This document shows positions 3,401-29,426 of a stretch of DNA of 32,847 nucleotides, piece by piece (position 1 is the stretch's first letter; each line of letters starts with the position of its first letter). Origin of the DNA: Candidatus Poribacteria bacterium (GTDB taxonomy: Bacteria > Poribacteria > WGA-4E > PCPOR2b); the NCBI GenBank assembly GCA_027296925.1, contig JAPUIP010000675.1:1-32847 (forward strand). The letters are read 5' to 3'. Both the position numbers and the translations under genes were made by a program. The notes under the pieces were generated by a model. It did no database searches and was not told the DNA's origin. It saw only the letters and a program-made list of their open reading frames with translations.

Positions 3401-6400
3401 CGGGAGTGGTCACCACAAGTGATGAACCTCTCTCTGGAACGAGTCCGCCTGACTGATAACCGGCTTCGTAATTACCATCGCTATCGGCGTCAATGAGCGC
3501 GTAGACGTAGTAGGTTTGGTTGTCAAACAGGGGATCGCTGAGGTCGCCGGCGAGATCGAACAGGAATCGATCCGATGGACCATCGGCGTCTTCCTGAACC
3601 GCCGTCGCGGTGAACTTCGTATAACCCTTTGCCGTTGCAACTTGGTCGGTCGTCAATGTGCCGCCGACGCCGGATTGGTTGCGCAGGTCTGTCGTGCTAT
3701 AGAAGAGATTGACTATTGCCGATTGATCATAATCCACATCGGTCCACTCAACGGTGTAGAATTTGTTGGTTGCCGTTGTGGACGTGGTGGAAGCGGGGCT
3801 ATCAACCTGAATGTTGCTGCTGTGAGAAATCGTGACGTTAGTCGCCGCTTTCTTAAACGCCTTATCGGTACTTGCGTCGGTCAGAATCACCCAGGCCGCA
3901 TAATCACCCGCAGCCGTTGTGGAAATGACAGTGGAGTCGTAGTAATTCCAGCCGGAGTAACCACTTGTTTGCACTTCGGGAAGCGCATCATTTCCAGTCA
4001 GCTGGCTCGTCAAGACCAGTGCGCCGGAGGAATCAAGGGCTTTCACCTCGGTCGCGTTCGTTTCGATTTCTGCGGCGGAGTCATAGTCCGATGGATTCGC
4101 GGACACCGTACTGTCTAGTGCGTAGAAGATGCTGACGACTGCCGCATCATCCCAATCGGTAGAGTTCCACGTAATGGTGATCGGGTCCGGCGTCGTCGCT
4201 GTCTGACCAGAGTCTGCAGTTGCTGTGACCGTGATATCGTTAGTGTAGAAGAAGGGACTATGCACAACCGTCACTTTGCCGGGGGCTGTGGCGACTTCGT
4301 CATATATGGCGCCGTTTGGATCATCGGCAACGGCATAGATGAAGTATGCAGCTTCCGGTACTGGATTTGCACCCGATGTACCGAAGCCTGTCGTCAGATC
4401 CCAACCCAGGCTAGCGACTGCCGAAGCATCCAGATCTGTACCGACCTGCACAGCTCTTGTCGCCGAATCTGTCAGGGATACAGCCAAAACGACTGCTGCC
4501 GGCGTCGTAAACTGGGTTTGCGAGACGTAGACATCGATATTTCCTGTCGTCGTTGCCCCGTCCCAATCGGTCCATGCCAGCGTGTAGGTTGTGTGACTGG
4601 TGATCACGGCGGGGTCGGTGCTTGCTGTATCTGCCGTTGCACCCGTGTCTGCAGGCGCGGTAAAATTGATCCCTTTCAATACAACCGCTGCGCTGACATC
4701 AAAAGAGGTCGTTGGCCCGTTATGGTTGAGCGCATAGACATAGTAGGTCGCTCCCGCATCGGTTGCGAGCGCGGAGGTATCCCAGACAAAAGTACCATTG
4801 TTTGAATCTGTGCTCGCAGGCACTGTGGTAATCCGGGTTGTCTTGTTACCATCCAACACATCAGAGACCGAAGTGTAAGTGCCATTCGTTGAGTACCGCA
4901 ACTCAACCGTTGCGCTCGAGTCGGCATCATCCGTCCAGTCGATGTTAAAGGAGGTGAAGACTTTATCGCTTCCCGACGTGGGTGCATCGCTATTTGACGC
5001 TATGAAGACAACCTTGCTGACATTGATGGTGTAGTCCGACACAATCACGTACTCATTGATGTCGGGCTGAGCCGCCGCGGGGGCCAAATAGATATAGTAT
5101 TTGCCTGTCGGAGAATTCCCCAGCGCTGGACTATCCGTACCATTCCATACCGCGGTTGTACTACCCGCCTGAGCTGCTGCTGTAAAGTTCACATGCGCAG
5201 AAGCGGTCGTACCATCCAGATTGTCCTCGTCCGAAATGGTTCCGGAGGTATCCGCGTAGAAGTCATAGGTCTGATTATCTGGCGTGGTTGACGAAATGGC
5301 ATTCGTTGTGAAGGTGGTAATGCCCCGTGCGCCCTGTGGGACCGGCGACGCAAATATCGTCGTATCAAACCAGTCTCCGGAGTTGCCGGTGGCGTTGACC
5401 ACGCTGTCTGCCAGCGTGATGTCCACGGTGCCGCTGTTGGTCAAGTTACAGTCGCGAACCGCAACCCATTCGAAGTCGAGCGTACCTGTACTGGTGTTGA
5501 CCAGGTTGAAAGACGAGCCCGTTGTTCCACTGGCAAGCAGCAGGCGTTCACCCGTCAAATTGACACCGGAGAGGGTTAACTGATCCGCGTTGGTCACTGT
5601 GGTGCCGGCGCCAACGAGAATGGTAATATCTCCGCCGTTGGTACCGCTGATGATCTCTGAATTGATATTCATACCACCATTGAGTGTCAAAGTCGCCGCG
5701 GTTGCAGCAAAGTTATCTATTGTCAGGATGACCCCTTGAACAGTGAGCAATCCGCCGATACTAAAGGTCTGACCGTTGTCAATCGTGAATGTGACAGCCG
5801 TATCAACGGTTACCGGACCGTTAAAGATAACGTTCTGGTTTTGTGCGCTCACATTTGCTTGCGTCACGACCGTCACACCTGAATTTGCTGTGAGTACGGT
5901 GTTGGCAAGCGCAACAGCGGCTCTTAAGGTGACATTTCCTGTGCCGTTGAGGGTCAGCGCCATCGAGGCGGCATCGTCGATGATACCCAGCGCAGAGCCG
6001 CCGGAACCAGTCGTAATGGTCATCGGAGCGGCATCAATGTCTAACGTTGCGGTTGCATCTAAGTCAATCACACCGCCGGAGCTGTTGTCGATGCTGTTGG
6101 CGGTTGCGTTGTCAAACAGGATTGTGGCGGCGCCGGTTGCTTCCAGTTCGCCGTTGAGGCCAATAACCACATTCCCCGTGAAGGTCTGGGCCACAGCAAC
6201 CGTCGTCAATTTACCGTTCAATGTCGTGAGACCGACTTGAACGTCAAGGGCGGCCGTTGTTGCCGCGCTACCGCCGGTGTTGACTGTGAAGGTTCCTGTA
6301 TTGAGTGTCACCGCCGTTGTCGCGAAGGTGCAGACTGCGCCAGAGTTAGCGACGACAATCGAGTCTGCGGTTAAGGTAACATTTGCCACATTGATGGTTT

Positions 6401-9260
6401 GAGCTGCGGTGCCGTCAAATGTTAGTGTCGCAGCACCACCACCGTTCGGAGAAAAGACAGAACTCGCATCGGCGACAGTGAGGTTACCGCCAATATTGAT
6501 TGCCCCTGTCGTTGTGGTGAGGGTGCCAATGCCACCACTACTGTCGATGCTTAACGCGCCGCTGAGGTCCAGTGGAACTCCCGTGACATCAACGGTCGCA
6601 TTGCCAGCAGCACCGGTTGCATTTATTGTGAGCGAGGCAGCACTAATACCGCCCCCCACTGCAGAGGCTGTTAGCGCTGCATCCGTACCAGCATTAACAC
6701 CGCTCGTCAATGTAATTGCACCAGAAGCGTTGATAGTTCCCGTCGCCGCTACATCTTGTGCAATGCTTGGAGGGGCCGCATTAGCGCCACCACCACCAGT
6801 CATTGTGATGGTCCCGGCTGTAATTGCGCCTGCCTCTGTAATTGAACAAGCAACTGCGGCAGCGGCGCTTGTGACAACAGAGATATTTCCACCGCCCAGG
6901 ATGTCGTTACCATTCATATCCAGTGAACAGGCGGTCGCAGCAGGACCGCTATCCATGTCGAGGAGCGTCGTGACGGTTAAATCGCCGGTCATTGAAATCG
7001 TTTGCGCGCCGGTGACGTCGGAGAGATCAACTGTCACAGCGGTCAAAGCCGGAAACGAGAGGGTCAAATCTTGGCCAGCGGCGGCGATTAGATCAAGGAT
7101 ACCCAGGCTAATCGTTCCTGTGCCGCCAGTAAACACGGGGTCTCCACCATTGTCCGTGAAGGTCAGTGTATCCGTGCTTCTCATGGTTAAATTGTTGTTA
7201 GTGATAATCAGTGACGGTACGCCGGTCGTCGCTGCGGTGGAGGTAATATTCATATCCGCATTGACCACGAAATGACTGACCGCAGTCAGTGTTGCGGCGC
7301 CATCTGCAGCGGTAACCGTTACCTGTCCACTTGCGGTGATGCCGTTGTTGGTATTTGGGTTGGGTACACTTGAACCGCTCCCTGATGTCAACGAGGCCAC
7401 ACCTGTGGTAGCCGTATCACCGGTGAGTGTGATTTGGTCAACAACCATGCCACCGCCACCACTCTGTGTGATCGTGGCATTTCCACCCGCGCCATCGGCA
7501 TCGACTGTTATGTCCGCGCCGCCTAAAAGATTATAGGTGCCCAGGGCGAGTGTCGCACTCCCGGTCGCATCGGCTTCAACATTGACGGTGCCGGTGCTGG
7601 ATACGGTCAGATCCCCACCCATTGTGAGCAGATGAGGGCTGCCGCCTGCATTCGTAATATCCAAAGTTCCCACGATTGCCGGACTTGTGGTGGTCACCCC
7701 CGAAGCATGGGTATTTGTCACCAGTACCGTTGCCGCGGTGAGGTTAATGCCTTTCGACGGATCAACGTCGACCGTTTGCGCCACGGTGCCCCCGAAGGTA
7801 ACATTGCCGGTTGGTGCAAAAATCGACAGAGAGCCTGTTACGGTCATATCGCCGTTAATCGTGACAGCATTCGCTGCCGCGGTAAACGTTGGCGAGCTGT
7901 TTGTACCGCCATCTGTGAAGGTGAGATCGACACAGGTGAGGGCAGCGGCGAGAATCAGTTGGGGGACGCCTGAAGCCGAACCCGTTGTCTCAATCACCAC
8001 ATCTCCGGGCGTGACGCCACCAAATACACCGCTGGTGGTTATGGTTGCATTTCCGGTGCTCGCCCCCGCTCGGATGAGAGAGTCAACCGCATCGAGCGTC
8101 GCGGCGCCTGCACTCATATCCAGATGAGCGTTGGTCGCGTTCGAGCTTTCAACGGTGAGCGTACTCGTAATATTGAGATTATCACCCGCACCCTGCGTCG
8201 TAAGTGTGCTATTCACGGTCAGATTCTGCATGGTAACCGCACCACCATCGAATTGGACAGTGCCGCTCGCTCCCGTGTTATTCACAACAATTGACGCCGA
8301 TGCGAGATTCACGCCGGGCGCCGCCTCAAGGTCGATAAGCTGGGTGCCGGTGCCGTCGAAGGTGATGGTGCCTGTTGGGGCAAAGGTAATACTAGCGGCG
8401 CCCGCCGGTATCACAAAATCATCGCCGATGAAAATCGGACCGCTTGAGGTGAGTGCGGGGTTGCCACCGGCATCGGCAAACGTCAGGGTTCCTGACAGAT
8501 CCAGTGTGTTGGAAAGCATTTCAAGTGTCGGAATGCCAGTACCGGCGGTCGATGAGATGGTTAAAGCCGTGCCCACGAAATCGCTGTTGCAAGTAAGCTT
8601 CGCAGCGCCTGCGTTCGCCGTCACATCGATTGTCGATGCGCCGGTGGCCGTCAGCGTCCCGGAGGCCGTCGCTGTCGCGCTTCCCGTTACTGTACCGTTT
8701 GCATCAATCGTGAGGGTGCTCACGCTCACAATGCCAACATTGCTGAGGGTGGCGGATCCGACGGCGGCCGCAAGTGTTTGAACTGTCAGCGGGGATCCAC
8801 CGAGCAAGGAGTTTCCGCTAAGGCTGACAGTGACATTGCCGGTGGCGCCACCACCGGCGGTCTGTATCGTCGTGCCGGTTGTGCCCGAAAGCGTGACGTC
8901 ACCGGAGAAGGTGAGGTTGACGTTTGCTGTCGCATGACCGGTGACTGTGAGGTTTTTGATATTCATCGATGGCAGTTGCACGGTTGCCGTTGCACCCGCG
9001 CTCGTGACCGTCACGTTCGCGTCAGTGGGGATATTGGTCAACGGGTAACCGTTACCCGACGTTTCGTTGAATGTTGCGGTTTCGCCAGCGACCGGCGGCG
9101 CTGTATCGCCAACCCAGTTCACTGCGTCGCTCCAGTCTCCTGACGAACCGCCACCGTCCCAGGTGCCATCAGCCGCGAAACTCGATATGGTAAAAGCTGT
9201 CATCATGCCGAAGGCAAGAACAGCTACTAGAAATCCTCTGAAAAAGCTTGATGTATTCAT
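498..9260 (-). CDS. Giant exported surface/adhesin-like protein (~2,920 aa): signal peptide, long beta-strand-repeat region, YVYA-type repeats, cohesin-like domains, dockerin-like repeat, FlgD/T9SS-type C-terminal domain
   Basis: Single long ORF. Start MNTSSFFRGFLVAVLAFGMMTAFTISSFAADGTW at 9260 follows SD gaggagg, so the ORF-track start at 9353 is probably too long. Dockerin-like ADVNGDGAVDVDDFQLLAKNFG. C-terminal YPNPFNPETWIPFALKDESHVKIHIYNVKGQKVRTL...SSVYFYRIEAGDFSATRKMVILK. Confidence 0.9.
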   Translation of the reverse strand: MNTSSFFRGFLVAVLAFGMMTAFTISSFAADGTWDGGGSSGDWSDAVNWVGDTAPPVAGETATFNETSGNGYPLTNIPTDANVTVTSAGATATVQLPSMNIKNLTVTGHATANVNLTFSGDVTLSGTTGTTIQTAGGGATGNVTVSLSGNSLLGGSPLTVQTLAAAVGSATLSNVGIVSVSTLTIDANGTVTGSATATASGTLTATGASTIDVTANAGAAKLTCNSDFVGTALTISSTAGTGIPTLEMLSNTLDLSGTLTFADAGGNPALTSSGPIFIGDDFVIPAGAASITFAPTGTITFDGTGTQLIDLEAAPGVNLASASIVVNNTGASGTVQFDGGAVTMQNLTVNSTLTTQGAGDNLNITSTLTVESSNATNAHLDMSAGAATLDAVDSLIRAGASTGNATITTSGVFGGVTPGDVVIETTGSASGVPQLILAAALTCVDLTFTDGGTNSSPTFTAAANAVTINGDMTVTGSLSIFAPTGNVTFGGTVAQTVDVDPSKGINLTAATVLVTNTHASGVTTTSPAIVGTLDITNAGGSPHLLTMGGDLTVSSTGTVNVEADATGSATLALGTYNLLGGADITVDADGAGGNATITQSGGGGMVVDQITLTGDTATTGVASLTSGSGSSVPNPNTNNGITASGQVTVTAADGAATLTAVSHFVVNADMNITSTAATTGVPSLIITNNNLTMRSTDTLTFTDNGGDPVFTGGTGTISLGILDLIAAAGQDLTLSFPALTAVTVDLSDVTGAQTISMTGDLTVTTLLDMDSGPAATACSLDMNGNDILGGGNISVVTSAAAAVACSITEAGAITAGTITMTGGGGANAAPPSIAQDVAATGTINASGAITLTSGVNAGTDAALTASAVGGGISAASLTINATGAAGNATVDVTGVPLDLSGALSIDSSGGIGTLTTTTGAINIGGNLTVADASSVFSPNGGGAATLTFDGTAAQTINVANVTLTADSIVVANSGAVCTFATTAVTLNTGTFTVNTGGSAATTAALDVQVGLTTLNGKLTTVAVAQTFTGNVVIGLNGELEATGAATILFDNATANSIDNSSGGVIDLDATATLDIDAAPMTITTGSGGSALGIIDDAASMALTLNGTGNVTLRAAVALANTVLTANSGVTVVTQANVSAQNQNVIFNGPVTVDTAVTFTIDNGQTFSIGGLLTVQGVILTIDNFAATAATLTLNGGMNINSEIISGTNGGDITILVGAGTTVTNADQLTLSGVNLTGERLLLASGTTGSSFNLVNTSTGTLDFEWVAVRDCNLTNSGTVDITLADSVVNATGNSGDWFDTTIFASPVPQGARGITTFTTNAISSTTPDNQTYDFYADTSGTISDEDNLDGTTASAHVNFTAAAQAGSTTAVWNGTDSPALGNSPTGKYYIYLAPAAAQPDINEYVIVSDYTINVSKVVFIASNSDAPTSGSDKVFTSFNIDWTDDADSSATVELRYSTNGTYTSVSDVLDGNKTTRITTVPASTDSNNGTFVWDTSALATDAGATYYVYALNHNGPTTSFDVSAAVVLKGINFTAPADTGATADTASTDPAVITSHTTYTLAWTDWDGATTTGNIDVYVSQTQFTTPAAVVLAVSLTDSATRAVQVGTDLDASAVASLGWDLTTGFGTSGANPVPEAAYFIYAVADDPNGAIYDEVATAPGKVTVVHSPFFYTNDITVTATADSGQTATTPDPITITWNSTDWDDAAVVSIFYALDSTVSANPSDYDSAAEIETNATEVKALDSSGALVLTSQLTGNDALPEVQTSGYSGWNYYDSTVISTTAAGDYAAWVILTDASTDKAFKKAATNVTISHSSNIQVDSPASTTSTTATNKFYTVEWTDVDYDQSAIVNLFYSTTDLRNQSGVGGTLTTDQVATAKGYTKFTATAVQEDADGPSDRFLFDLAGDLSDPLFDNQTYYVYALIDADSDGNYEAGYQSGGLVPERGSSLVVTTPAGSDLTTISYTINWIEEWDDNSNVPINVDVYFDTTNTKTLGDLDDTLGTANAPAGIIERDIALNTDSTGAQTGTNSVIWDDIVLTSTTAPTGGSTTTLIDTSADSPLSASVGNDYYIGRRLLFTAGTLSSAHTITDYVASTQTITFSPAASSAVSATTVTSYKVVIPDGTYYVYAVLDTSTGTTNDAYNTGIAAANSPVLSGTTTSGSTTQITDSNLTDTANLYVGARLVITSGTNRGVSRTITAYDGTKQLTVSPAFSNATGSAATYRIDVPETFSVSLGTVTITNYTISLVSPGSFHEVGDYFDIDIQIDTNAQAVQNASLHLNFNTTTLELASETQPLSKLAEPITNTVTTSAGSTSGTTLIASGLSSATDDAYNTYQVVVTSGTAKGERATIADYNGSTKTISVDPPFSTQILSGVNFRIDQALTGSANIGPNSWGVTIVQNSGSNTNGQADFIAVSTQPNATAFAATDTFITVTFKTKAAGNTDVTFSYDDSRQTRLIDDAGGVHIPHDGNSVHVRTIANPASAISGNVLLEGRTNHQEDITFELRQPGSLGHYSGYTSPEDTDATAPGIQLQTGTDGGFKLTNVPSGKYFLTAKAATYLRGQNHHTTPLEIVPGKNITGVLIQGYDDANADGDFADSGEEFDFLLAGESGTEDNQITVTDVTAFANNFGLTSAEALDAADVNGDGAVDVDDFQLLAKNFGKTAIPPTGDAGVANAAPTGKAIYSPFELVGLPSEIELGEEIEVEVHLKNGTNVTGYGFDLAFDPKHVIASDAAEGKFLSNQSQTFFISKQISTEKEGKKLTIANAAQTPVSGKGSVLTFTLKPVALGDAVLTIGNPQLHQRDGSIKLDGVSGRYLVRVIPKKVVTKSVLLQNYPNPFNPETWIPFALKDESHVKIHIYNVKGQKVRTLDLGFQKSAEYITRDKAAYWDGRNQMGERIASSVYFYRIEAGDFSATRKMVILK
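2130..3132 (-). repeat. Three diverged copies of a ~70-aa module inside the giant protein
   Basis: Copies near 2130-2346, 2590-2802 and 2902-3132: GTTLIASGLSSATDDAYNTYQVVVTSGTAKGERATIADYNGSTKTISVDPPFS...FRI; STTQITDSNLTDTANLYVGARLVITSGTNRGVSRTITAYDGTKQLTVSPAFS...YRI; STTTLIDTSADSPLSASVGNDYYIGRRLLFTAGTLSSAHTITDYVASTQTITFSPAAS...YKV. Confidence 0.75.
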
Positions 9261-9677
9261 TTTTTCCTCCTCTGTTTGTTTTCGTCTGTTTTGAAGTTTA
9301 CCCCGTCGGGTTTGTATATTGTTTGAGTCTGTTTTGTGTTTGGATGCGTCCATTTGAATCTCCTATAATTTGTTAGTCTATGTGTCATTCTCACGGTGCC
9401 GGGGGGAGATGGGGGACTTGTTGGCTAGGTATCTATCGGAAGCCGTTTCGGGAAACTTTAGGACTTTTTTGAATCAGATTGTCTCGTCCCTGGGATTTCG
9501 CAAACACACGCTGATGCAACGCCCTGTCCGGGATTGACTCGGAGGCCCGTCAGTATCCAGGCAGGTCAGGCATCAAAGCAATATGTATGCCAAGACCCCT
9601 AGCACCTAGGGTGAAGGCCTGATCTTCTGCTTTAGCGAGGCCTGAGCTTCGTCTTCAGGCATAGCCTGCATTGTATA

Positions 9678-9866: not shown

Positions 9867-12800
9867 CTACCGGCGAATACCCATCTTCCAGAAGTGGGTT
9901 TTCGTCACAGTGTTACGCCGTGCGGTTGTGTAGCAGAAGTACACTCCGTTGGCGAGAGGAGTCTGCAAATCGTCCGCGAGATTCCAGCGATAGATGCGAG
10001 CCAATCGATCGGAAATTGCCTGAAATTCGTCATCGTTTATCGTTTTAACAAGCTCGCCTCTGACATTGTAAACCCGCACGGTTAAGATGGCAGGGCTATC
10101 GATTTGACATTCGAGTGTAATTTCGCCAACGGTCGCGGGGTTGGGATAGGTATGCAGGCGCAGGAAGGTCAGTGGTTTGATAGGCGCAGCCAGGAGTTGA
10201 TCAAAACGGAGCGTTTTTACACGCTGTCCCGAATTGCCAGCGAGATCAGTTCCGCGCGCGATGATAACAACTGTATTGCCGATGGGCTTGGGCAAGATGT
10301 GGGTGCCCGTCCATTTCATGACATCGGTCGACTCCAGGCCAACCGGCTGCTGGCTGACAAGTAAAGTTGGATCTGTGCGCAGCTTTTCCGATGCGGTGAT
10401 GGTAATGGTGAGGAAGTCCGGCTGAATCGGATTCGGCAGGGCAAAGACCTGAAAGGTTGGGGGAGTTCGATCCGGCGGCTTCCTGACGATCACTTCAAGT
10501 GAGCCAGTATCGCTATTTCCATTTGGATCGGTTGCCGTCAAGGCAATTAATTCCGAGCCGAGAAAATTTTTCGTCTGGGGTTTGAGGCTCAGCCGGACAA
10601 CCCGCGTGACGAGACCGATTTTGATTAAAATTTTGTCGCTGGCTTTCGCCGTCCAGGCGATCTCTGCATCGGGTGTATCTTCGTCTGTCACAAATTCATC
10701 CAGATGCATCCCCAGTACCTCACCATCCGACAAATAAACCGGCTGGAACGAGACTACCGGGCGTTTCGTCGTAGAAAATGGCGTGCGAACTTCAACGACG
10801 GTTGTGCCTTCTGCCCGGTTTTGCTGCGGGTCCGTGACAGTGAAGGTGATGGTTTCACTGCCGACGAAGTTATCATGCGGGAGAATGTCCACAATATGGG
10901 AAGCCGCATTGATCTCAACCGTCAGATTCAACGTCTCCGATACCGTCCAGGTCAATTGATTCAGCGGCGTGTCCGGATCGGCTACAAATTCATCGAGATC
11001 TAGCTCTCGATCCGGAACGCCATCAATAAAGATCACGTGGGGGAGTTCGGCGATTACCGGCGGTTCGCCGTTCGGATTTGTGGTTTTGACGGTGACACGG
11101 ATGGTTTGACTTCCGCTGAGTCCATCTGCATCTGTCGCTGTAAAGGTGATTTCTTCCGTGCCAACGAAATCGGGGACGGCGGTGAAGGTGACCTGCCGGG
11201 TGTCTGGGGCAATTGACACCTGAATCTGCGCGTTACCGATGAACGCCCACCGAATTTGGTTGATAGGGGTGTCTTCATCGGTGACGTGGTCATCGAGGTC
11301 AATCGAGTTATCGCGTCCCCCTTGCACAAAGCCCACATCCGGAATCCCAGCGACAACGGGTGGTTTTTTGCCCGGCGGTCTCTCGGTCACGGTGACACGA
11401 ATGGTTTGGCTGTCGCTGAGTCCGTCCATATCGGTGGCGGTGAAGGTCGTCTCTTCCGTGCCAACGAAGTCGGTGGCGGTGAACGTGACTCGCCGGGTAT
11501 TGGAATCAATGACTACCTGGATCTGGCTGTTTCCGGCGACTGTCCACTGGATCTGGTCGATGGGCGTATCGGCATCGGTGACGTGGTCATCGAGGTCAAT
11601 TGTGTTATCGCGCTCGCCTTGCACAAAGCTCACAGCCGGGATTCCTGCGACAACCGGAGGGGTTTTGCCCGGCGGTCTTTCGATTACGGTGACGCGGATA
11701 GTTTGGCTATCGCTAAGCCCATCGGTATCGGTCGCGGTAAAAGTGATCTCCTCAGTGCCGAGGAAATCGGCGGTGGCAAACGTGACCCGCCGGGTGGCGG
11801 ACTTAATATTCACATCGATATTGGTATTGCCGGTGGCCTGCCACTGAATCTGATCGATAGGGGTGTCTTCATCGGACACATAGTCATCGAGAAGGATCGA
11901 GCGATCCACCTCGCCTTTCACAAAGTCCACGTTCGGAATGCCAGCGACGACCGGCGGTTTTGGCGGTGGCCTAATCTCTCCGATGACATTGACAGTGTAC
12001 GTCCCGCTTCCAGTATTTCCCTCGGGGTCGGTGGCGGTAAAAGTAAGACGGTGTGTGCCAGCCGACCCGGCTGGCGCGTCAATCGTTACAACGCGCGTCT
12101 CCGGATCTATGACCACACCGAGTGGCGCGACTTCGCCCACACTCCACGTGATTTCTTCGTCTGGCGTATCGCCATCCTCGACATGCTCATCCAGATCTAG
12201 GGCCCCATCCTGGTCCCCTTCATCGAGGGTCAGTTCTCCAGCGAGGGACACCACGGGGCGGAAGACGGCTGTTACGGCTGTATCTGCGCTCGCAGACAGT
12301 CCCGCTTTATTGGTGGCTGTGAACGTCACAGTCTCTATCCCACCCGGCCAATTCGGTTGAGGCGCAAACAGCACGCGGCGATCCGCTTCGATGGTTACCT
12401 GCAAGTGCGTCTCATCAAAGCCGGAAGCTGTCCATTCGATAGCTGAATCCGGCGTTGTCGCGTCCGTTACGAAGTCATCGAGATCGAAGCCTTCGGTGAC
12501 TTCACCGTGACGCACCTGAATCTCCGATGGAAAATCGCGAAGCTCCGGTGGGCTGGGAGCAAGCACGCTGATGTGAACCTGCGTACTCGTACGATTCGAC
12601 TGCGGATCAATTGCCGTGAAGGTGACTTCCTCGGAAACAATCGCCTCGGCAAAGAACGTTGCAATCCGGTCGCTATCGATCGTGATCTGAACCACTTCAT
12701 TACCGCTGAACTCCCATTCAATCTGATCCGGGGTGCTATCGAAATCGAATACATATTCTTTCAGATCTCTTGTTTCTGGTAGTCCAAAATTCAGAACGAT

Positions 12801-14351
12801 CGGCGGAATATCGGCAATCACGGGTGGAGCGCTAGGGTCAATCAAGATTACCTGAATTTTATCTGCGCTCGCCTGGCGGTCCGGGTTCGTCGCCATGAAG
12901 GTAACCGATTCCCTCCCTGTCCAACCGCCCTCGCTACGGAAGGTAACCTGATGCGTTTCTGGATCGATGCCGACCTGTACCTCAACATTGCCTTTCGTCG
13001 TCCAGGTCAGATCCGCCGGCTCGAAGTTAAAATCGAACACGAAGTCATCCAGATCAAACACCGGTGGCCGCATCAGCACGCCGTCGTTCGTGGCGATGAC
13101 ATTGGCAAAAGGGAAAAGGATTGTGAGCGTGGAGAAGTCAATCATCGGCCCATCAAAAGTGGGCGCGATGTCGATCGCCAGTTCAGACACATCGCTGTTA
13201 CCATCGGCATCCGTCGCTCTCAGTTCAACGGTCGTTCGTGCCGGCGTTTGTGCTGCCGCAATGAATAGTATGGTCTGGTCTTCGCGGCGGATGACTTCGA
13301 CGCCGGCGAATGGCGTGCCCCGAGTGATTACCCACTGAATCTCAGAAGCGGGTGAATCCAAGTCCGAAACAAATCCGTTCAGATTGACCTCGCGGGTTTC
13401 ATTAACCCGCAAAAATATCGGACCCTCGGATCGGATAATCGGTGGCGAAACCACTTGAACTTCGAGTCTCCGACTTGTTGCGTTGCCCTCCGGATCGCGA
13501 GCGGTAAATGTAATGGTCTCTTTGCCGATCCAGTCCTCCACAGCACGAAAGGCGACGATATGGGTCGTCGGGTTGATGTTCACAATGACATTTGCATTTC
13601 CCGAGGCCTCCCAACTGAGTTGTTCCGGTGTATTGTTTGTATCTTGAACATGGAGATCCAGATCCAGCGACTCATGAACTTTTCCCACCGGAAATCGAAT
13701 AATCCTGGGAAAAGTATCGAGAATAACCGGGCCGCCAACGACTGAAATCGTCGCCGGAGTCATGTTGACGAACGGCCGGGGTGGGAGCGACCCAATTTTT
13801 ACTTCAGTGACGCGAGATTGAGACTTGTCATTGTCAAATGTGATCTGTGTGAAACCGGTCGTTTTAATCGCGCGAAAACGCATCAGCCCAACCACGCCAG
13901 GTGCCTTCAGCCCCGGCTCGACACCTTGAATGAGCCCTTGCGCGAAATCAATCTGGAATTTTCGGAAGAAGCGATTGCCGGGGTCTCCGTGTGTATCACT
14001 TTCAAAGATGTTCCACCCATCCGGCACCGCATCCCCCCTACCAACCGGCTGAACGCCACGGAGACTAAAATTTGCGTCAACCAGTTCGAGGAATTGCGAT
14101 TGTTGGTTTTGAAATGGAACGTTTTCGGTTGTGTCCACACCATCGAATGACAGGTAGATCGACACTGCGGTGACATTCTGGCCTTGCGGATCGACGAAGA
14201 TTTCCACCTCAAATTCATCGTTCAGGCTGACCGAAAATTTACTGGCTTTCGTTGCCGCGCTTCGCAGCACAACCGTAGCTGCGTCAGCTTGATTCAGCCA
14301 GATGATAACGAAAAGACATGCAAACGCAATGTACCGGGGCACTCTCGACAT
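9867..14351 (-). CDS. Large exported cadherin-like/Ig-like tandem-repeat protein with N-terminal cohesin-like domain and FlgD/T9SS-type C-terminal domain (1,494 aa)
   Basis: Signal peptide MSRVPRYIAFACLFVIIWLNQADAA after SD aaggag. About a dozen ~100-aa repeats of the type DLDDHVTDEDTPINQIRW...VTFTA..DFVGTEEITFTATDADGLSGSQTIRVTV. C-terminus TYPNPATVGEITLECQIDSPAILTVRVYNVRGELVKTI...GVYFCYTTARR. Confidence 0.9.
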   Translation of the reverse strand: MSRVPRYIAFACLFVIIWLNQADAATVVLRSAATKASKFSVSLNDEFEVEIFVDPQGQNVTAVSIYLSFDGVDTTENVPFQNQQSQFLELVDANFSLRGVQPVGRGDAVPDGWNIFESDTHGDPGNRFFRKFQIDFAQGLIQGVEPGLKAPGVVGLMRFRAIKTTGFTQITFDNDKSQSRVTEVKIGSLPPRPFVNMTPATISVVGGPVILDTFPRIIRFPVGKVHESLDLDLHVQDTNNTPEQLSWEASGNANVIVNINPTTHIVAFRAVEDWIGKETITFTARDPEGNATSRRLEVQVVSPPIIRSEGPIFLRVNETREVNLNGFVSDLDSPASEIQWVITRGTPFAGVEVIRREDQTILFIAAAQTPARTTVELRATDADGNSDVSELAIDIAPTFDGPMIDFSTLTILFPFANVIATNDGVLMRPPVFDLDDFVFDFNFEPADLTWTTKGNVEVQVGIDPETHQVTFRSEGGWTGRESVTFMATNPDRQASADKIQVILIDPSAPPVIADIPPIVLNFGLPETRDLKEYVFDFDSTPDQIEWEFSGNEVVQITIDSDRIATFFAEAIVSEEVTFTAIDPQSNRTSTQVHISVLAPSPPELRDFPSEIQVRHGEVTEGFDLDDFVTDATTPDSAIEWTASGFDETHLQVTIEADRRVLFAPQPNWPGGIETVTFTATNKAGLSASADTAVTAVFRPVVSLAGELTLDEGDQDGALDLDEHVEDGDTPDEEITWSVGEVAPLGVVIDPETRVVTIDAPAGSAGTHRLTFTATDPEGNTGSGTYTVNVIGEIRPPPKPPVVAGIPNVDFVKGEVDRSILLDDYVSDEDTPIDQIQWQATGNTNIDVNIKSATRRVTFATADFLGTEEITFTATDTDGLSDSQTIRVTVIERPPGKTPPVVAGIPAVSFVQGERDNTIDLDDHVTDADTPIDQIQWTVAGNSQIQVVIDSNTRRVTFTATDFVGTEETTFTATDMDGLSDSQTIRVTVTERPPGKKPPVVAGIPDVGFVQGGRDNSIDLDDHVTDEDTPINQIRWAFIGNAQIQVSIAPDTRQVTFTAVPDFVGTEEITFTATDADGLSGSQTIRVTVKTTNPNGEPPVIAELPHVIFIDGVPDRELDLDEFVADPDTPLNQLTWTVSETLNLTVEINAASHIVDILPHDNFVGSETITFTVTDPQQNRAEGTTVVEVRTPFSTTKRPVVSFQPVYLSDGEVLGMHLDEFVTDEDTPDAEIAWTAKASDKILIKIGLVTRVVRLSLKPQTKNFLGSELIALTATDPNGNSDTGSLEVIVRKPPDRTPPTFQVFALPNPIQPDFLTITITASEKLRTDPTLLVSQQPVGLESTDVMKWTGTHILPKPIGNTVVIIARGTDLAGNSGQRVKTLRFDQLLAAPIKPLTFLRLHTYPNPATVGEITLECQIDSPAILTVRVYNVRGELVKTINDDEFQAISDRLARIYRWNLADDLQTPLANGVYFCYTTARRNTVTKTHFWKMGIRR
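11045..11940 (-). repeat. Three nearly identical ~297-bp tandem repeat units within the 1,494-aa gene
   Basis: Repeat landmarks PPVVAGIP...GTEE(I/T)TFTATD.DGLS.SQTIRVTV recur at about 11045, 11349, 11646 and 11940 with near-constant spacing and high nucleotide similarity. Confidence 0.8.
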
Positions 14352-23950: not shown

Positions 23951-23992
23951 AATTCAGTCGGACGGATTTCTGAAGCTGAAAGGGTTGAATGC

Positions 23993-24031
23993 AAAAAGCC
24001 GGGAACGCAAAAGGTGCGTTCCCGGCTTTTT
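23993..24031. terminator. Bidirectional intrinsic terminator
   Basis: aaaaagccgggaacgc-aaaaggt-gcgttcccggcttttt: perfect 16-bp stem (17 counting A-T closure) flanked by A and T runs, between convergent genes. Confidence 0.92.
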
Positions 24032-24069
24032 GACTAAATCGGACGACAGTAGCGTCAGCATCGCCAAAG

Positions 24070-24243
24070 TCATGCTCGGAGCTTTCGATAAAGATAGATG
24101 ACTGCAAACCCAATCGCACCGAGCAAGAGAAGTGTCATGGCAAGCTGAAATGCCCAGGCGAAAACTGGAACGACAATCTTCAGCGCGAGCAACACCAGCC
24201 CGAGTATCAGTGCTAAGATGACCAGACTTCGAAGTAGTCTCAA
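24070..24243 (-). CDS. 57-aa two-TM membrane protein, TTG start, not in the supplied ORF track
   Basis: Translation MRLLRSLVILALILGLVLLALKIVVPVFAWAFQLAMTLLLLGAIGFAVIYLYRKLRA*; SD aggag 9 nt before TTG; immediately preceding in-frame codon is TAA. Confidence 0.75.
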   Translation of the reverse strand: MRLLRSLVILALILGLVLLALKIVVPVFAWAFQLAMTLLLLGAIGFAVIYLYRKLRA

Positions 24244-24286
24244 TTAGGTTGACTCCTATGAATTCAGTATTCACAAATTCTCAGCC

Positions 24287-24946
24287 CTAATCTTTTAATC
24301 GGGCTTTGAGCTTGGCGAGTTCTTCCTCGAGTTCGTCGTTGCGATTCAGTTCGTCGAACTCCTGATCCAAACCGAGTTGACGCATTTCGCTCAGCGCTGC
24401 GGCATTCGCCTCGGCATCAAGGACACGGTCTTCAATACGATTAAAAGCACTTACTGCGCTAGAATCAGAAATTCCTGACACTGTTTGATGAATTGCTCGT
24501 TCCGCCTCTGCCCTCTTTTGACGAGCAATGAGCAAGGCACGCTTGTTTCTGGCTTCTTCGATCTTTGCCTCTAAAGTTGACAGCCCATCTTTGAGTACAG
24601 AGACACTCTCTTTCTGAGCCTCGAACTGTTCGCGGAATCTTTCCGCCAGATCAGCAAAGGACCGCTTCCGGCGAAGAGCTTCCTTTGCGCGCACATCGTC
24701 GCCATTCTGGATAAACACGATGGCACGCTTTTCCCACTTCTCAGCACTTTCCAAGTTTTCCCGGGACTGCGCTTCAAATTTATTCTGGTCTCGAATCGCC
24801 GCAGCAACCTGAATTTTTGCCTCCTTGAGTTCGTGCTGCATGTCCTCCAAGAGTTGATTCAGGATTCTCTCCGGATCCTCAACCCGATCGAGCAAGTCGT
24901 TGATATTCGATTTGAGGATTCGTCTGATTTTCTCAAAGATCGGCAT
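24287..24946 (-). CDS. pspA: PspA/IM30 family protein (paralog 1)
   Basis: MPIFEKIRRILKSNINDLLDRVEDPERILNQLLEDMQHELKEAKIQVAAAIRDQNKFE... coiled coil typical of PspA/IM30. Confidence 0.92.
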   Translation of the reverse strand: MPIFEKIRRILKSNINDLLDRVEDPERILNQLLEDMQHELKEAKIQVAAAIRDQNKFEAQSRENLESAEKWEKRAIVFIQNGDDVRAKEALRRKRSFADLAERFREQFEAQKESVSVLKDGLSTLEAKIEEARNKRALLIARQKRAEAERAIHQTVSGISDSSAVSAFNRIEDRVLDAEANAAALSEMRQLGLDQEFDELNRNDELEEELAKLKARLKD

Positions 24947-24977
24947 TGGTGATCACTCCCTTATAATTTCCAGCGGT

Positions 24978-25538
24978 TTATACAGTATACCTTCCGAGGG
25001 TCTCCTCATCGAGATCCTCTAACCCGCCTTTAGAGGGCTGTTTTTCTGCATTCTTTAGCTCGGTTTCAGGAAACCCAGTTTCTTGAATTATCTGCTCTGC
25101 GACATAAATCGGTGCCTCAAATCTCAATGCAAGGGCAATTGCGTCGCTGGAGCGGGCATCAATCTCTAGCGTTTTGCCATTCGCTTGTAAATTGATTTGT
25201 CCAAGATAGGTTGAATCGGTCAGGGAATGCACAAAGACTGTCTCAACTGTGGCACCAAGATTTTCGATGATATTTTTCATCAGATCATGCGTCATTGGAC
25301 GCGGTGGCGGCGGTTCGCCCTTGAGTTTCCACTGAATCGCGGTAGCCTCTCCAGGTCCAATCCATATTGGTACAATATATTTCGGATCACCAGCTTTCTC
25401 TTTCAAAAAGAGAATCGGTGTGCCAGTACTGGCATCAACAGAGATAAACGCCACGTCAACCTCGATCATGTTCTGTTCTCTGGTCTGATGGCGGTCATCG
25501 GCTTCAGCGGCCTTTTTGATCTTCTTTGGATCTTTCAT
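24978..25538 (-). CDS. Bifunctional nuclease domain (DUF151/BFN) protein
   Basis: ILFLKEKAGDPKYIVPIWIGPGEATAIQWKLKGEPPPPRPMTHDLMKNIIENLGATVETVFVHSLTDSTYLGQINL...IDARSSDAIALALRFEAPIYVAEQI. Likely start MKDPKK at 25538 with SD aaggag; the ORF track starts at 25628. Confidence 0.9.
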   Translation of the reverse strand: MKDPKKIKKAAEADDRHQTREQNMIEVDVAFISVDASTGTPILFLKEKAGDPKYIVPIWIGPGEATAIQWKLKGEPPPPRPMTHDLMKNIIENLGATVETVFVHSLTDSTYLGQINLQANGKTLEIDARSSDAIALALRFEAPIYVAEQIIQETGFPETELKNAEKQPSKGGLEDLDEETLGRYTV

Positions 25539-25721
25539 CTGAGGACTCCTTATTGACTCACTTGGGATTTGAGTGTCAATTGGGTTCGCCGATGACACGA
25601 TGAATGCTACAAGAATGTTGCCAATCATCTTGCTATCGACAAACCCAAATTGCTTCGGAAGTTTCCGTTAATAAATAACAAGCACCGACGTGCCACGGCT
25701 CCTGGACTTTACTAGGCCCAT

Positions 25722-26194
25722 CTATGATGCCTCGGTGCCAGTGGTTTCCGGGGACTTCGTTTCGGCAGTCAGATCTAAGCCATGAACGAGGTCACTCACA
25801 GTCTTGACGAGTTTCTGCGGCTCGACATCCGCAAAATTCAGAATCTCTTTCAACACTGGTACGGCTGCACCGGCACCCAGGATCGAGCGAAGGATCTTGC
25901 CGACTCCGCCGCCTGACGCGCCATTCCCCCCACCATTTCCACCGAGGTCAAGGACCCGTATACTTTCGATGCGTTCCGCAGGCTTCATCAATTGACCTGT
26001 GACTTCGGGGAGTGCCTGAATGAGTGACAATATCGCTTCATTGGTCAGGACTTTCTGATCGGCTGAGTTCTTCGCTTCGATCAGCGCCTCTTCACCCTCG
26101 GCCTTCGCTAGGCTTTATAAGTCACAATCAGGATGACCACCATCGCAGCAATTGCGCCGATGATCATTCCGAAAAGGTTTGTACTGGCACCCAT
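25722..26194 (-). pseudogene. Flotillin remnant: N-terminal TM segment joined out of frame to the C-terminal tail
   Basis: Minus strand 26194-26108 encodes MGASTNLFGMIIGAIAAMVVILIVTYKA* after SD aaggag. In another frame from ~26110: LAKAEGEEALIEAKNSADQKVLTNEAILSLIQALPEVTGQLMKPAERIESIRVLDLGGNGGGNGASGGG..., a flotillin C-terminus. The SPFH domain and most of the coiled coil are absent. Confidence 0.75.
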
Positions 26195-26329
26195 TTCACA
26201 TCTCCTTCGTAAAAAGGATACGCGGATTAATAACCAATGGTACAATAGACTTGCCAACACAGGGTTTAATGGATTGGCATCCCTCCTTATTTCGGCCAGT
26301 TCTGGACAAAACGTGACTGACAGTCAGCC

Positions 26330-27031
26330 TCATGCATCGAAGGAACTATCCGCTTTTGTCACATCAAAGATTCGTGTCGTCGGATCGTAATCGATAAGGA
26401 TCACCGTGTCCCCTTTTAAGGGAATCTCCTCGCCCTCACGGATACGGCAACTGACGGTCAACTCGGGTCCATCGGGAACCTGGACACGCGCTGTCCCAAA
26501 GGTTGTTGTGACCCTGCCGCTAATTACCCGACCCGTTAGCCCGATCAGATCATAATTGGTGGTGGCACGTTCACTTTCGGGAAATAGCTTTGAAATTCCC
26601 AGGGCAAGGTAACGTGTTCCAAAAATACTACATAGAAACGCGGCAGCGAAAGGGATCCAGAGTACGGCTCGCGGGGAGTTAGGATCGATATTCAAAAAGT
26701 CATTAACAATCAAGCCCGAAATTCCCCAGATTGAAAAGAGAGCCATCAGGATAATCGTAAATGGAACTTTGCCAACGTTCAAAATTCCTAACACGCTGGA
26801 AACAAAGCCACCTCCCCCGGAACTGCTCTCCGCATCAACCTCAGCATCCGCGTCCACATCAACGTCAGCATCAACGTCCATATCGACATCAGTGTCCACA
26901 TCGACATCCCCACTCCCAAAATCTAAGCCGCCCATAACGAGTTGAAGAATGGCAAAGAGAAAAACGAAGGCAATCGGCGCTGTAAACCAAACATTGTACC
27001 AGGCAAAGATGTAATCAAAAAAACCGCCCAT
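26330..27031 (-). CDS. NfeD/YqiJ-like membrane protein with C-terminal OB-fold
   Basis: Several TM helices, then DLIGLTGRVISGRVTTTFGTARVQVPDGPELTVSCRIREGEEIPLKGDTVILIDYDPTTRIFDVTKAD (NfeD-type OB domain); next to a flotillin remnant as in known NfeD-flotillin pairs. Confidence 0.8.
   Translation of the reverse strand: MGGFFDYIFAWYNVWFTAPIAFVFLFAILQLVMGGLDFGSGDVDVDTDVDMDVDADVDVDADAEVDAESSSGGGGFVSSVLGILNVGKVPFTIILMALFSIWGISGLIVNDFLNIDPNSPRAVLWIPFAAAFLCSIFGTRYLALGISKLFPESERATTNYDLIGLTGRVISGRVTTTFGTARVQVPDGPELTVSCRIREGEEIPLKGDTVILIDYDPTTRIFDVTKADSSFDA
26831..26909 (-). repeat. Low-complexity Asp-Val/Ala-encoding hexamer tract
   Basis: Encodes DVDVDTDVDMDVDADVDVDADAEVDAES in the NfeD-like protein. 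Confidence 0.9.
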
Positions 27032-27048
27032 ATCGACTTCCCTCCAGC

Positions 27049-27285
27049 CTAGTCAAGCCGTTGCACTTTGTACAGATGGGTTTGGGGTTCATAATCCCAA
27101 AGGACCACCCTTTCCCCCTGCTTTACACTTCCGCCCTCCACGTCAACACTGCAATATATCGTCCTGCGGAAAGGGCGGCCTTCAATCTGTGCGATGCCAA
27201 AATCGGTGTTGACTTCACGACTTGTGATCTTTGCAACGGCGCCGACGAGATCTGAACGGCGCAATTTGCGAAAAAATCAACTCAA
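27049..27285 (-). pseudogene. OB-fold end of a second NfeD-like protein, N-terminal membrane part missing
   Basis: FFRKLRRSDLVGAVAKITSREVNTDFGIAQIEGRPFRRTIYCSVDVEGGSVKQGERVVLWDYEPQTHLYKVQRLD parallels the OB domain at 26330-27031. No ATG; in-frame TGA just upstream of FFRK. Could instead be a real 71-aa OB protein from TTG 27264. Confidence 0.5.
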
Positions 27286-27556
27286 GCGCGCGTTGAGCTT
27301 CGCGGCGGTTGATATTGTTGATTAGATACTTATCGCCATTGACTTGAATCTCAAGGTAAGCTTGCCCAAATACACGGTGTTTGAAACTTCGGTCAAGTTT
27401 GGCGGACTTGATCTGAGAAAATGGGAGATTACACCGAATGTTGATGTAGGAAGCACTGAGGCTACCCATCTGGCGCTCATCCAACACCAACACCCGGTCG
27501 GAAGTGATAATGATGAAGTCGGGACTCAGGAGTTCGGATCTCCCAAGCATGCACAA
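27215..27556 (-). CDS. Small PH-like domain protein, C-terminus possibly altered by fusion to downstream sequence
   Basis: LLSPDFIIITSDRVLVLDERQMGSLSASYINIRCNLPFSQIKSAKLDRSFKHRVFGQAYLEIQVNGDKYLINNINRREAQRALELIFSQI resembles bacterial PH-like domains. The tail APFRSRRRRCKDHKS is the OB ORF read in another frame. Confidence 0.45.
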   Translation of the reverse strand: MCMLGRSELLSPDFIIITSDRVLVLDERQMGSLSASYINIRCNLPFSQIKSAKLDRSFKHRVFGQAYLEIQVNGDKYLINNINRREAQRALELIFSQIAPFRSRRRRCKDHKS

Positions 27557-27640
27557 TTGAACTTGCTCATTCGCAGTCAGTTGGGCTTGAACTGTTTCTT
27601 GAACTCAAGATGGCAGGCGATGAAACTCAGCCACCTTACA

Positions 27641-28339
27641 TCACCCCGTTGAAGTTGAGCTTTCTGAATCCTCAGCCGCGACTTTTGCTTTCAACGCCGC
27701 AAGATCTGCCTCAACCGTCTCTTTACGCTCAAGCTCGTGAAATTTCTGCTCAAGGTCATCGCCTTGCGTCAACTCAGCTAACGCCTCCGCATGAGCTTCC
27801 AGATCACGGACACGCTCTATCATCCGGTCGTAGGCATCGAATGTACTTGTATCAATCACCACATCCGCCGGTGGCGATGAGCTCACAGCCGGCCGAGACG
27901 ATTCCACACTTTCAGTCACAACGAATTTTGCGGTGCGATAGCGCATCGAATCTAGCTGAGTTTCCAACGTCTTCAAACTTGACTTGAGCGAATCGATTGT
28001 TTCCTGCTGTGTTGCAGTCTGCTCTCGATATTGGTCAGCTCTCTTGATATGCTCACATTTGCGGGCGAGCGCCCGGCGAGCGAGCTCTTCTTCCCCTTTT
28101 TTCAGGGCGAAAACCGCTTTTTCTTCCCACCTTTGCGCTTCCCTGCCATGTTCGTCAATCTCGCGCTCTAGCAGCTTGAGGTCGGTGATTGCACCCGCGA
28201 TGAGAGATTTGACATTACGGATGTTCTGGCGCATCTCTTCGAGCATCAGGCCGCGCGTTTTGCGCGTATCTTCCGCCTTTGTGAGAAGGTCGCTCACATG
28301 CGATCTGATAATGAGCTTGGCTCGGTTTAGTGTTTGCAT
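27641..28339 (-). CDS. PspA/IM30 family protein (paralog 2)
   Basis: MQTLNRAKLIIRSHVSDLLTKAEDTRKTRGLMLEEMRQNIRNVKSLIAGAITDLKLLEREIDEHGREAQRWEEKAVFALKKGEEELARRAL...; SD aaggag. The ORF-track start at 28546 is probably too long. Confidence 0.85.
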   Translation of the reverse strand: MQTLNRAKLIIRSHVSDLLTKAEDTRKTRGLMLEEMRQNIRNVKSLIAGAITDLKLLEREIDEHGREAQRWEEKAVFALKKGEEELARRALARKCEHIKRADQYREQTATQQETIDSLKSSLKTLETQLDSMRYRTAKFVVTESVESSRPAVSSSPPADVVIDTSTFDAYDRMIERVRDLEAHAEALAELTQGDDLEQKFHELERKETVEADLAALKAKVAAEDSESSTSTG

Positions 28340-28501: not shown

Positions 28502-28855
28502 TGGAGGTGGCGGGAATTGAACCCGCGTCCAAGAGCATTTCAACAAAGGCTACTACATGCTTGTCACAAGTTTTAAGTTTCGCCCACAAGACTCCCTTAT
28601 GCCAGATTCGCTGTGGACTATCTCAAGTGAAGTCTCGCGGCCTGTCCCTTGAGAACAAACAGACCACATAGCCCGTTTTTTGTCGCCCGACTAATCCGAC
28701 GGGCCGCAAATTAGTCAGACGAGCTGCTCTTAAGCAGCTAGTGCTAATTCTTCGTAATCAGCAATTATGATTTTTCCGCCTGTTTAACGAGGCCTGCGGA
28801 GACCTCGGCATGCAACCTTTATCTCATCTACTCCTGTCGAAACCTTTTCACCCCC
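28502..28855 (-). ncRNA. ssrA: tmRNA, 3' CCA not encoded
   Basis: Minus strand begins GGGGGTGAAAAGGTTTCGACAGG and ends GGACGCGGGTTCAATTCCCGCCACCTCCA; GGGGGUG pairs with CACCUCC. Tag ORF GGC GGA AAA ATC ATA ATT GCT GAT TAC GAA GAA TTA GCA CTA GCT GCT TAA (predicted GGKIIIADYEELALAA). Confidence 0.96.
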
Positions 28856-28961: not shown

Positions 28962-29426
28962 CTACCTCAGATATGATCGAATCGCGCGTTGATCTGCCGC
29001 TTTCCTGAGATCGTCGCGCTTATCATACGCCTGTTTGCCGCGTGCGACGGCGATTTCGACTTTTACTTTGCCGTCGCTGAAGTAGGCTTTCGTTGGGACA
29101 ATTGTCATGCCATCAGAGCGGGTTGTCGCTTCGATTTTCCGAATTTCCCTACGATTCAGCAGCAACTTCCGTTTTCGCTTTGGCTCATGGTTCTCGCGAT
29201 TCCCGTGCTCGTACGGACCAATATGCGCATCGATCAAAAAAACTTCGCCATTCTCGACACGCGCGTAGCTATCTGTCAGATTGAGTCTGCCAGTGCGGAT
29301 CGCCTTGACTTCTGTCCCTTGAAGAACAAGCCCAGCTTCGTAACGATCCAGCAGGTGATAATCATATCGCGCTTTCTTATTGATGGCAGCCGTTTTGGTC
29401 TGTGCAGCAGGCTTGGCACCTTTCAT
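28962..29426 (-). CDS. smpB: SsrA-binding protein SmpB
   Basis: NKKARYDYHLLDRYEAGLVLQGTEVKAIRTGRLNLTDSYARVENGEVFLIDAHIGPYEHGNRENHEPKRKRKLLLNRREI...YFSDGKVKVEIAVARGKQAYDKRDDLRKAADQRAI. Confidence 0.97.
   Translation of the reverse strand: MKGAKPAAQTKTAAINKKARYDYHLLDRYEAGLVLQGTEVKAIRTGRLNLTDSYARVENGEVFLIDAHIGPYEHGNRENHEPKRKRKLLLNRREIRKIEATTRSDGMTIVPTKAYFSDGKVKVEIAVARGKQAYDKRDDLRKAADQRAIRSYLR

Follow-up and report, generated by a model that had tools for sequence, protein, structure and literature searches.

A probable PspA/NfeD-flotillin membrane-maintenance unit built around a DUF151 protein in Candidatus Poribacteria

PspA is already described beside band-7/flotillin proteins and YqiJ/YuaF partners in two large PSP surveys (PMC11237479, PMC9239133). 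NfeD pairs with flotillin (PMC2636767). YdjI, an SPFH protein of B. subtilis, brings PspA to the membrane there (PMC8581546), and transcription of pspA in E. coli depends on sigma54 together with PspF (PMC6003685, PMC3709507). DUF151 proteins are widespread in bacteria and have no settled role; their other name, bifunctional nuclease (BFN), is taken from plant enzymes. Here these proteins are found together on a contig of a Candidatus Poribacteria metagenome-assembled genome (MAG; GCA_027296925.1, contig JAPUIP010000675.1, 32,847 nucleotides, the whole of which is called the window). The minus strand carries, from about 29.4 to 24.0 kb, smpB, ssrA, pspA1, a bPH-like open reading frame (ORF), an OB stump, an NfeD/YqiJ-like gene, flotillin pieces, BFN/DUF151, pspA2, a gene for a 57-aa protein with two transmembrane (TM) segments (TM57), and a terminator (Table 1). 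Judged from gene order and motifs, this row is probably a PspA/NfeD-flotillin module for inner-membrane maintenance in the form that it takes in Poribacteria, with BFN at its core.

The comparison covers 85 Poribacteria genomes, nearly all of them draft MAGs. In most of these the order smpB-ssrA-[pspA1]-PH-(NfeD)-NfeD-flotillin-BFN-[pspA2-TM57] recurs, whole or in part. BFN is encoded in 79 of the 85 and stands beside at least one other member in 76 of the 79 (all but G051, G064, and G067); it is the constant member of the unit. Its 79 neighborhoods were scored with profiles built for the members of the row, and since several end at contig edges the counts are minima: PH 67, NfeD 64, smpB 58, flotillin 51 (47 full length), PspA 17, and TM57 17. 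Family f1 has the full set. Family f2 has smpB-ssrA-pspA1-BFN-pspA2-TM57 with no PH, NfeD, or flotillin, and the large family f3 has smpB-ssrA-PH-NfeD-flotillin-BFN, in many genomes with the PH start a few tens of bases from ssrA. Smaller arrangements are NfeD-BFN-TM57 or BFN-PH (f4), BFN-PspA (f7), smpB-PspA-PH-NfeD-BFN-PspA (f8), and, outside the class, PspA-PH-(PspA)-BFN-PspA-TM57 (G058 and G059). By a first profile TM57 is found in 15 genomes, in every case at most one gene from BFN, and it directly adjoins BFN where pspA2 is missing (G002, G011, G014, and G060). Family f3 has no PspA in the unit but carries tandem arrays of distant PspA-like genes (e.g., G028:C177, G039:C1, G027:C34), often as frames of 350-450 aa. 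Some f3 genomes (G019, G020, G022, G023, and G044; L147, L183, L187, L188, L189) have a tandem BFN pair, one G023 copy being a fragment. In G060 (C480, L101), BFN-TM57 is followed by a gene of about 490 aa resembling a ClpP-fold, NfeD-type membrane protease.

The initial annotation, made from the letters of the window, had taken these genes for one envelope-maintenance operon and named gene order in related genomes as the check. The idea survives that comparison, as the order is kept phylum-wide. Because of this synteny the row is not a product of chance, and there is good support for a functional unit. Most simply, the ancestor had a unit with BFN in its center and two separable membrane halves. 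In favor of the maintenance module are a colinear order across families in which BFN is kept and f2, f3, and G058/G059 retain differing blocks, TM57 staying by BFN without pspA2, and two promoter-like motifs that are confined to the unit in eight f1 genomes.

These motifs are copies of a 16-base block, TGGCAAnATyCTTGTA, lying some 60-80 bases ahead of the pspA1 (P1) and BFN (P2) start codons in the eight f1 genomes with pspA1; the pspA1 copy of G003 begins CGGCAA instead of TGGCAA. A near form precedes pspA1 in f2, G069, and G058. P1 and P2 have the sigma54 spacing GG-N10-GT with a -12 element TTGTA, where the canonical pattern at -24/-12 is GG-N10-GC. In the 6.4-Mb genome of the window the exact pattern occurs at P1 and P2 and nowhere else, and in the other seven f1 genomes GGCAAnATyCTTGTA occurs at the same two sites only; the motif was defined from these sites themselves, and its rarity is descriptive and not a test. 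The sigma54 reading is supported because another pspA of the same family (G000:C63, G003:C347, G005, G008:C10; L250, L252, L253, L254) has the canonical TGGCA-N7-TTGCA 76-96 bases before its start. The second copy before BFN makes two transcription units more likely than one. Therefore, of the earlier proposal the functional unit stands, and the single operon gives way to what are probably two co-regulated transcription units in family f1. Scans of the region for sigma70 promoters (5 vs 4.9 expected) and terminators (7 vs 5.1 expected) are near background. Two other elements before pspA1 were dropped. An FNR-like box, TTGATTCAGATCAA (~28377-28364), is not conserved by relatives. An inverted repeat around the pspA1 leader, CCTTGTAAC/GTTACAAGG, considered as a hairpin hiding the ribosome site, is lacking in f2, and it falls outside the predicted transcript because its 5' arm overlaps the -12 element.

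Could the genes be neighbors for historical reasons, smpB-ssrA being a stable anchor behind which unrelated housekeeping genes were simply never scattered? Most loci do have smpB-ssrA as their left border, and PspA, PH, NfeD, and flotillin can individually be missing, as this explanation would have it. However, parts of the row persist with no smpB seen nearby (BFN-TM57 in G014; BFN-PspA in G066 and G068), losses occur as functional blocks, and the same rare motif stands at P1 and P2. It is thus held to be unlikely, though it is the best of the alternatives.

A candidate for the factor that reads P1 and P2 is a degenerate RpoN paralog. Ordinary RpoN is present in 80 of the 85 genomes. Eleven genomes encode a paralog of about 450 aa (L237:1619-2962 in G000:C297; L238, L239, L240, L241, L245) in which Sigma54_DBD is the sole sigma54 part recognized by Pfam and region I, the activator-response region, is absent. 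Against TIGR02395 it scores 94.7 bits over residues 197-425, short of the cut-off of 277, and its RpoN box reads ARRTVTYYRN where the ordinary one reads ARRTVAKYRE. Every f1 and f2 genome with pspA1 has it, as does G069; it is absent from G002 (an f1 genome that has lost pspA), f3, f4, and f7; in G058 its C-terminal part lies at a contig end. A Sigma54_DBD match in G062 is a different protein and is excluded from the count. The co-occurrence with PspA in the unit has a Fisher p of 1e-9, which overstates the evidence because the genomes are related. For the RpoN paralogs of R. sphaeroides and of B. japonicum, promoter differences at positions -11 and -12 have been reported (PMC3162934), which makes a paralog that reads TTGTA plausible. 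It is a tentative and rather doubtful suggestion, nevertheless, that the region-I-less paralog is dedicated to this unit and reads TTGTA at P1 and P2 while ordinary RpoN reads TTGCA. If true, these Poribacteria would have a membrane-stress switch of their own, with a DUF151 protein recruited to the membrane as its constant output. The AlphaFold model of the paralog is not usable (predicted local distance difference test, pLDDT, 43.7). In G069 its gene is divergent to an NtrC-type regulator and stands before a TPR protein; G058 has the same TPR neighbor. This regulator is the only candidate seen for the enhancer-binding AAA+ activator that a sigma54-dependent promoter needs.

In the genome of the window the flotillin half of the unit is broken. 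Intact flotillins of about 610-650 aa are found in G003, G004, G005, G006, and G008, and in that of G003, the only intact one domain-tested, both Band_7 and Flot score. The window gene has lost the SPFH domain and the coiled coil, its first 28 and last ~129 codons being joined out of frame, and so lacks the Band_7, coiled-coil, and Flot combination of an SPFH2 flotillin. A whole-genome search with a full-length flotillin returned this stump only and no other flotillin of that type, and nothing clear was found in a look for microhomology at the deletion junction. PH orthologs in relatives are intact (126-128 aa). The window copy has an in-frame TGA at codon 10 (27607-27605), where relatives have Arg, and its bPH_3 match (E 4.8e-5; 24.2 bits vs a cut-off of 23) is over threshold, in a frame broken by this stop; by sequence the protein matches no solved structure. 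At its 3' end the gene continues into the OB part, the C-terminal one, of NfeD1; the membrane part of this NfeD1 is deleted here, whereas G003, by alignment, still has the protein whole. Thus the PH, OB/NfeD, and flotillin ORFs, which the initial annotation had counted as working members, are a gene with a nonsense codon, a PH-NfeD1 fusion, and a gutted out-of-frame flotillin; they are probably pseudogenes or stumps. Provided that the MAG is assembled correctly, the module is therefore losing its scaffold half in this genome.

Flotillin is absent or broken also in G001, G002, G007, G021, G023, G024, G029, G033, G042, G044, G048, G053, and G072, among others. Flotillin frames are split in G074 and G079 (the latter includes runs of N). 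All of these genomes retain PH and BFN. G048, a single contig, has no flotillin at all. In G001 and G007 an in-frame deletion removed the membrane part of NfeD2 and left the OB fold, and flotillin is lost too. In G001 the expected flotillin place (L036:4862-5740) is taken by an unrelated ORF of 292 aa whose N terminus is signal-like. In G042 (L164, ~5863-6303), of a different family, flotillin is gutted like that of the window, its start and a C-terminal piece kept out of frame.

This G042 case could also be taken as a sign that the lesions are assembly or binning artefacts and that the real genome has an intact operon, as could the repetitive nature of flotillin coiled coils and the 907 contigs of the source MAG. 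Such an origin is rather improbable, since three lesions of differing kind fall within one block with the neighboring genes intact, the genome has no other such flotillin, and relatives, including the single-contig G048, lack it, an in-frame deletion in G001 and G007 having removed it along with the membrane part of NfeD. Still less probable is that the stumps work as minimal proteins (OB as a soluble protein, PH as a lone domain from an internal ATG, and a small TM peptide), because, for all the OB-only NfeD of G001 and G007 and the 54-68% identity of the OB and Flot stumps to G003, the junction shifts the frame in both window stumps and codon 10 of PH is a stop.

If the row is a maintenance module, membrane stress would switch on P1 (pspA1-PH-NfeD1-NfeD2-flotillin) and P2 (BFN-pspA2-TM57). 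PspA1 and PspA2 would polymerize on the damaged inner membrane in an ESCRT-III-like manner, and the NfeD/flotillin scaffold would confine or stabilize the damaged patch. The PH protein may bind lipid or protein at the membrane face, and TM57 may anchor BFN, PspA2, or both to the membrane. BFN would be a soluble effector or adaptor at the membrane, with RNA or DNA cutting a putative activity. In the window genome, with the scaffold half decayed, the PspA-BFN-TM57 half and NfeD2 would remain. The envelope role, the two promoters, and the hub role of BFN are all inferred from gene order and motifs. Several points weigh against this picture. Gene order indicates association rather than function; the genomes are, with few exceptions, draft MAGs, and the window lesions are read from the assembly. 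Whole families do without the PspA half or without the flotillin half, so the two may not be one machine, and with a nuclease label that comes from plant enzymes, the place of BFN in membrane repair is a guess. Still, BFN is linked across the phylum with PspA, NfeD, flotillin, and a very small membrane protein, and this link, nearly never lost, does suggest a concrete, testable membrane role. The reciprocal loss of the two halves around a fixed BFN would provide natural knock-outs with which to dissect which parts of PspA and flotillin systems need each other.

The features of the row are collected in Table 1. The initial annotation had the minus-strand order, approximate coordinates, and most domain guesses right according to Pfam searches and ORF reading, including PspA paralogs at either end and the strong terminator; smpB and ssrA, directly upstream and the left border in most relatives, were absent from it. 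The frames of pspA1, NfeD2, BFN, pspA2, and TM57 are open and well conserved. PspA_IM30 spans the whole of both PspA proteins, far over the Pfam cut-off, and both score under the equivalog cut-offs that NCBIfam sets for PspA of E. coli and for LiaH. NfeD2 has the YqiJ_N membrane domain and conserved OB columns of the NfeD/YqiJ-YuaF type, and the 71-aa OB stump does not qualify. An anti-phage defence reading was dropped, as PADLOC gave no match.

Table 1. Features of the PspA-BFN unit and its borders in the window
Feature	Position	Strand	Evidence and remarks
smpB	28962..29426	-	Pfam SmpB E 6e-57; left border of unit
ssrA (tmRNA)	28502..28855	-	ARAGORN; tag ADYEELALAA; position kept in relatives
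Putative sigma54-like promoter P1	28411..28426	-	TGGCAAAATCCTTGTA; ~72 nt before pspA1 start codon; block conserved in 10 relatives
pspA1, 232 aa	27641..28339	-	Pfam PspA_IM30 E 1e-33; same-place genes of family f1 67-74% identical
PH-domain gene, probable pseudogene	27215..27634	-	Starts with GTG; stop (TGA) at codon 10; fused at its 3' end; open bPH-like part 27215-27556
OB-fold stump of NfeD1, 71 aa	27049..27264	-	54% identical to OB part of whole NfeD1 in G003
NfeD2/YqiJ-like membrane protein, 233 aa	26330..27031	-	YqiJ_N E 1.9e-12; open, full length; full-length orthologs 74-76% identical
Flotillin N-terminal stump, 28 codons, TM	26111..26194	-	Matches beginning of full G003 flotillin
Flotillin C-terminal stump, ~129 codons	25722..26111	-	Pfam Flot E 5e-16, no Band_7; frame differs from its start
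Putative sigma54-like promoter P2	25608..25623	-	TGGCAACATTCTTGTA; ~70 nt before BFN start codon; kept in all eight f1 genomes with pspA1
BFN/DUF151 protein, 186 aa	24978..25538	-	BFN_dom E 4e-37, 126.8 bits vs cut-off 27; TM0160 structure 1sj5/1vjl 2e-30
pspA2, 219 aa	24287..24946	-	PspA_IM30 E ~1e-48 to 1.2e-47; relatives 68-84% identical
TM57, 57-aa two-TM protein	24070..24243	-	No Pfam family; kept in relatives
Intrinsic terminator hairpin	~23992..24032	-	dG -32.5 kcal/mol, z -7.1

The window (contig C640) belongs to a genome of 6.39 Mb, and the named genomes nearest to it are all Ca. Poribacteria MAGs. Two other minus-strand ORFs of the window, at 501-9353 and 9870-14351, are very large (2951 and 1494 aa). 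Their domains are of the secretion-tail/dockerin and Ig-like (Big_9, HYR) kinds, and by this content they would encode surface or secreted proteins.

Among described systems, the E. coli psp operon resembles the unit in having pspA under a sigma54-type promoter, in Poribacteria by motif alone, and the promoter pair would carry this parallel into an uncultured phylum. Unlike in E. coli, no pspB, pspC, or adjacent pspF is seen at the unit, the -12 element is TTGTA, and a second putative promoter stands at BFN. B. subtilis pspA-ydjGHI (PMC8581546) likewise combines PspA, an SPFH protein, and membrane anchors and is stress regulated. It is driven by sigmaW, its SPFH partner YdjI is soluble, and it has no NfeD, BFN, or PH, whereas the Poribacteria unit has the sigma54-like motif. 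The NfeD-flotillin pairs YuaF-YuaG and YqiJ-YqiK (SPFH2, PMC2636767) correspond to NfeD2/YqiJ_N directly followed by flotillin in intact relatives; in Poribacteria, however, the pair is embedded between PspA/PH and BFN and is repeatedly lost. As in the DUF151 family (TM0160, 1sj5, 1vjl; plant BBD1/2, PMC7249048), the BFN domain covers most of the protein. Its genomic link to a membrane module differs from the described members, and nuclease activity is putative in the Poribacteria branch. No BFN lies in the flanks of 28 non-Poribacterial PspA loci, which were chosen by PspA2 similarity and many of which have short flanks. Planctomycetota clusters (L077, L079, L080) have two pspA next to NfeD and flotillin, without BFN or TM57 in the flanks examined. 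The open-access literature searched has no co-mention of PspA with DUF151 or "bifunctional nuclease", and a prior description elsewhere is possible. A text search of PMC9239133 and PMC11237479 found no nuclease partner, nor in PMC11237479 a PH domain. The combination of DUF151, PH, and 57-aa proteins, which the initial annotation did not recognize as a described unit, thus remains unfamiliar, and all three recur with the unit; PspA with NfeD and flotillin is known, and the partnership with BFN, PH, and TM57 was not found in that literature. Also close are the operons of the two PSP surveys, in which PspA has as neighbors a protein of TM-SPFH-coiled coil-Flot layout and a membrane partner of the YqiJ/YuaF type. 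Neither a CesT/Tir chaperone nor an AAA+ ATPase is recognized among the Poribacteria genes read; in their stead the Poribacteria unit has a second PspA copy, a bPH protein, DUF151/BFN, and the 57-aa two-TM protein.

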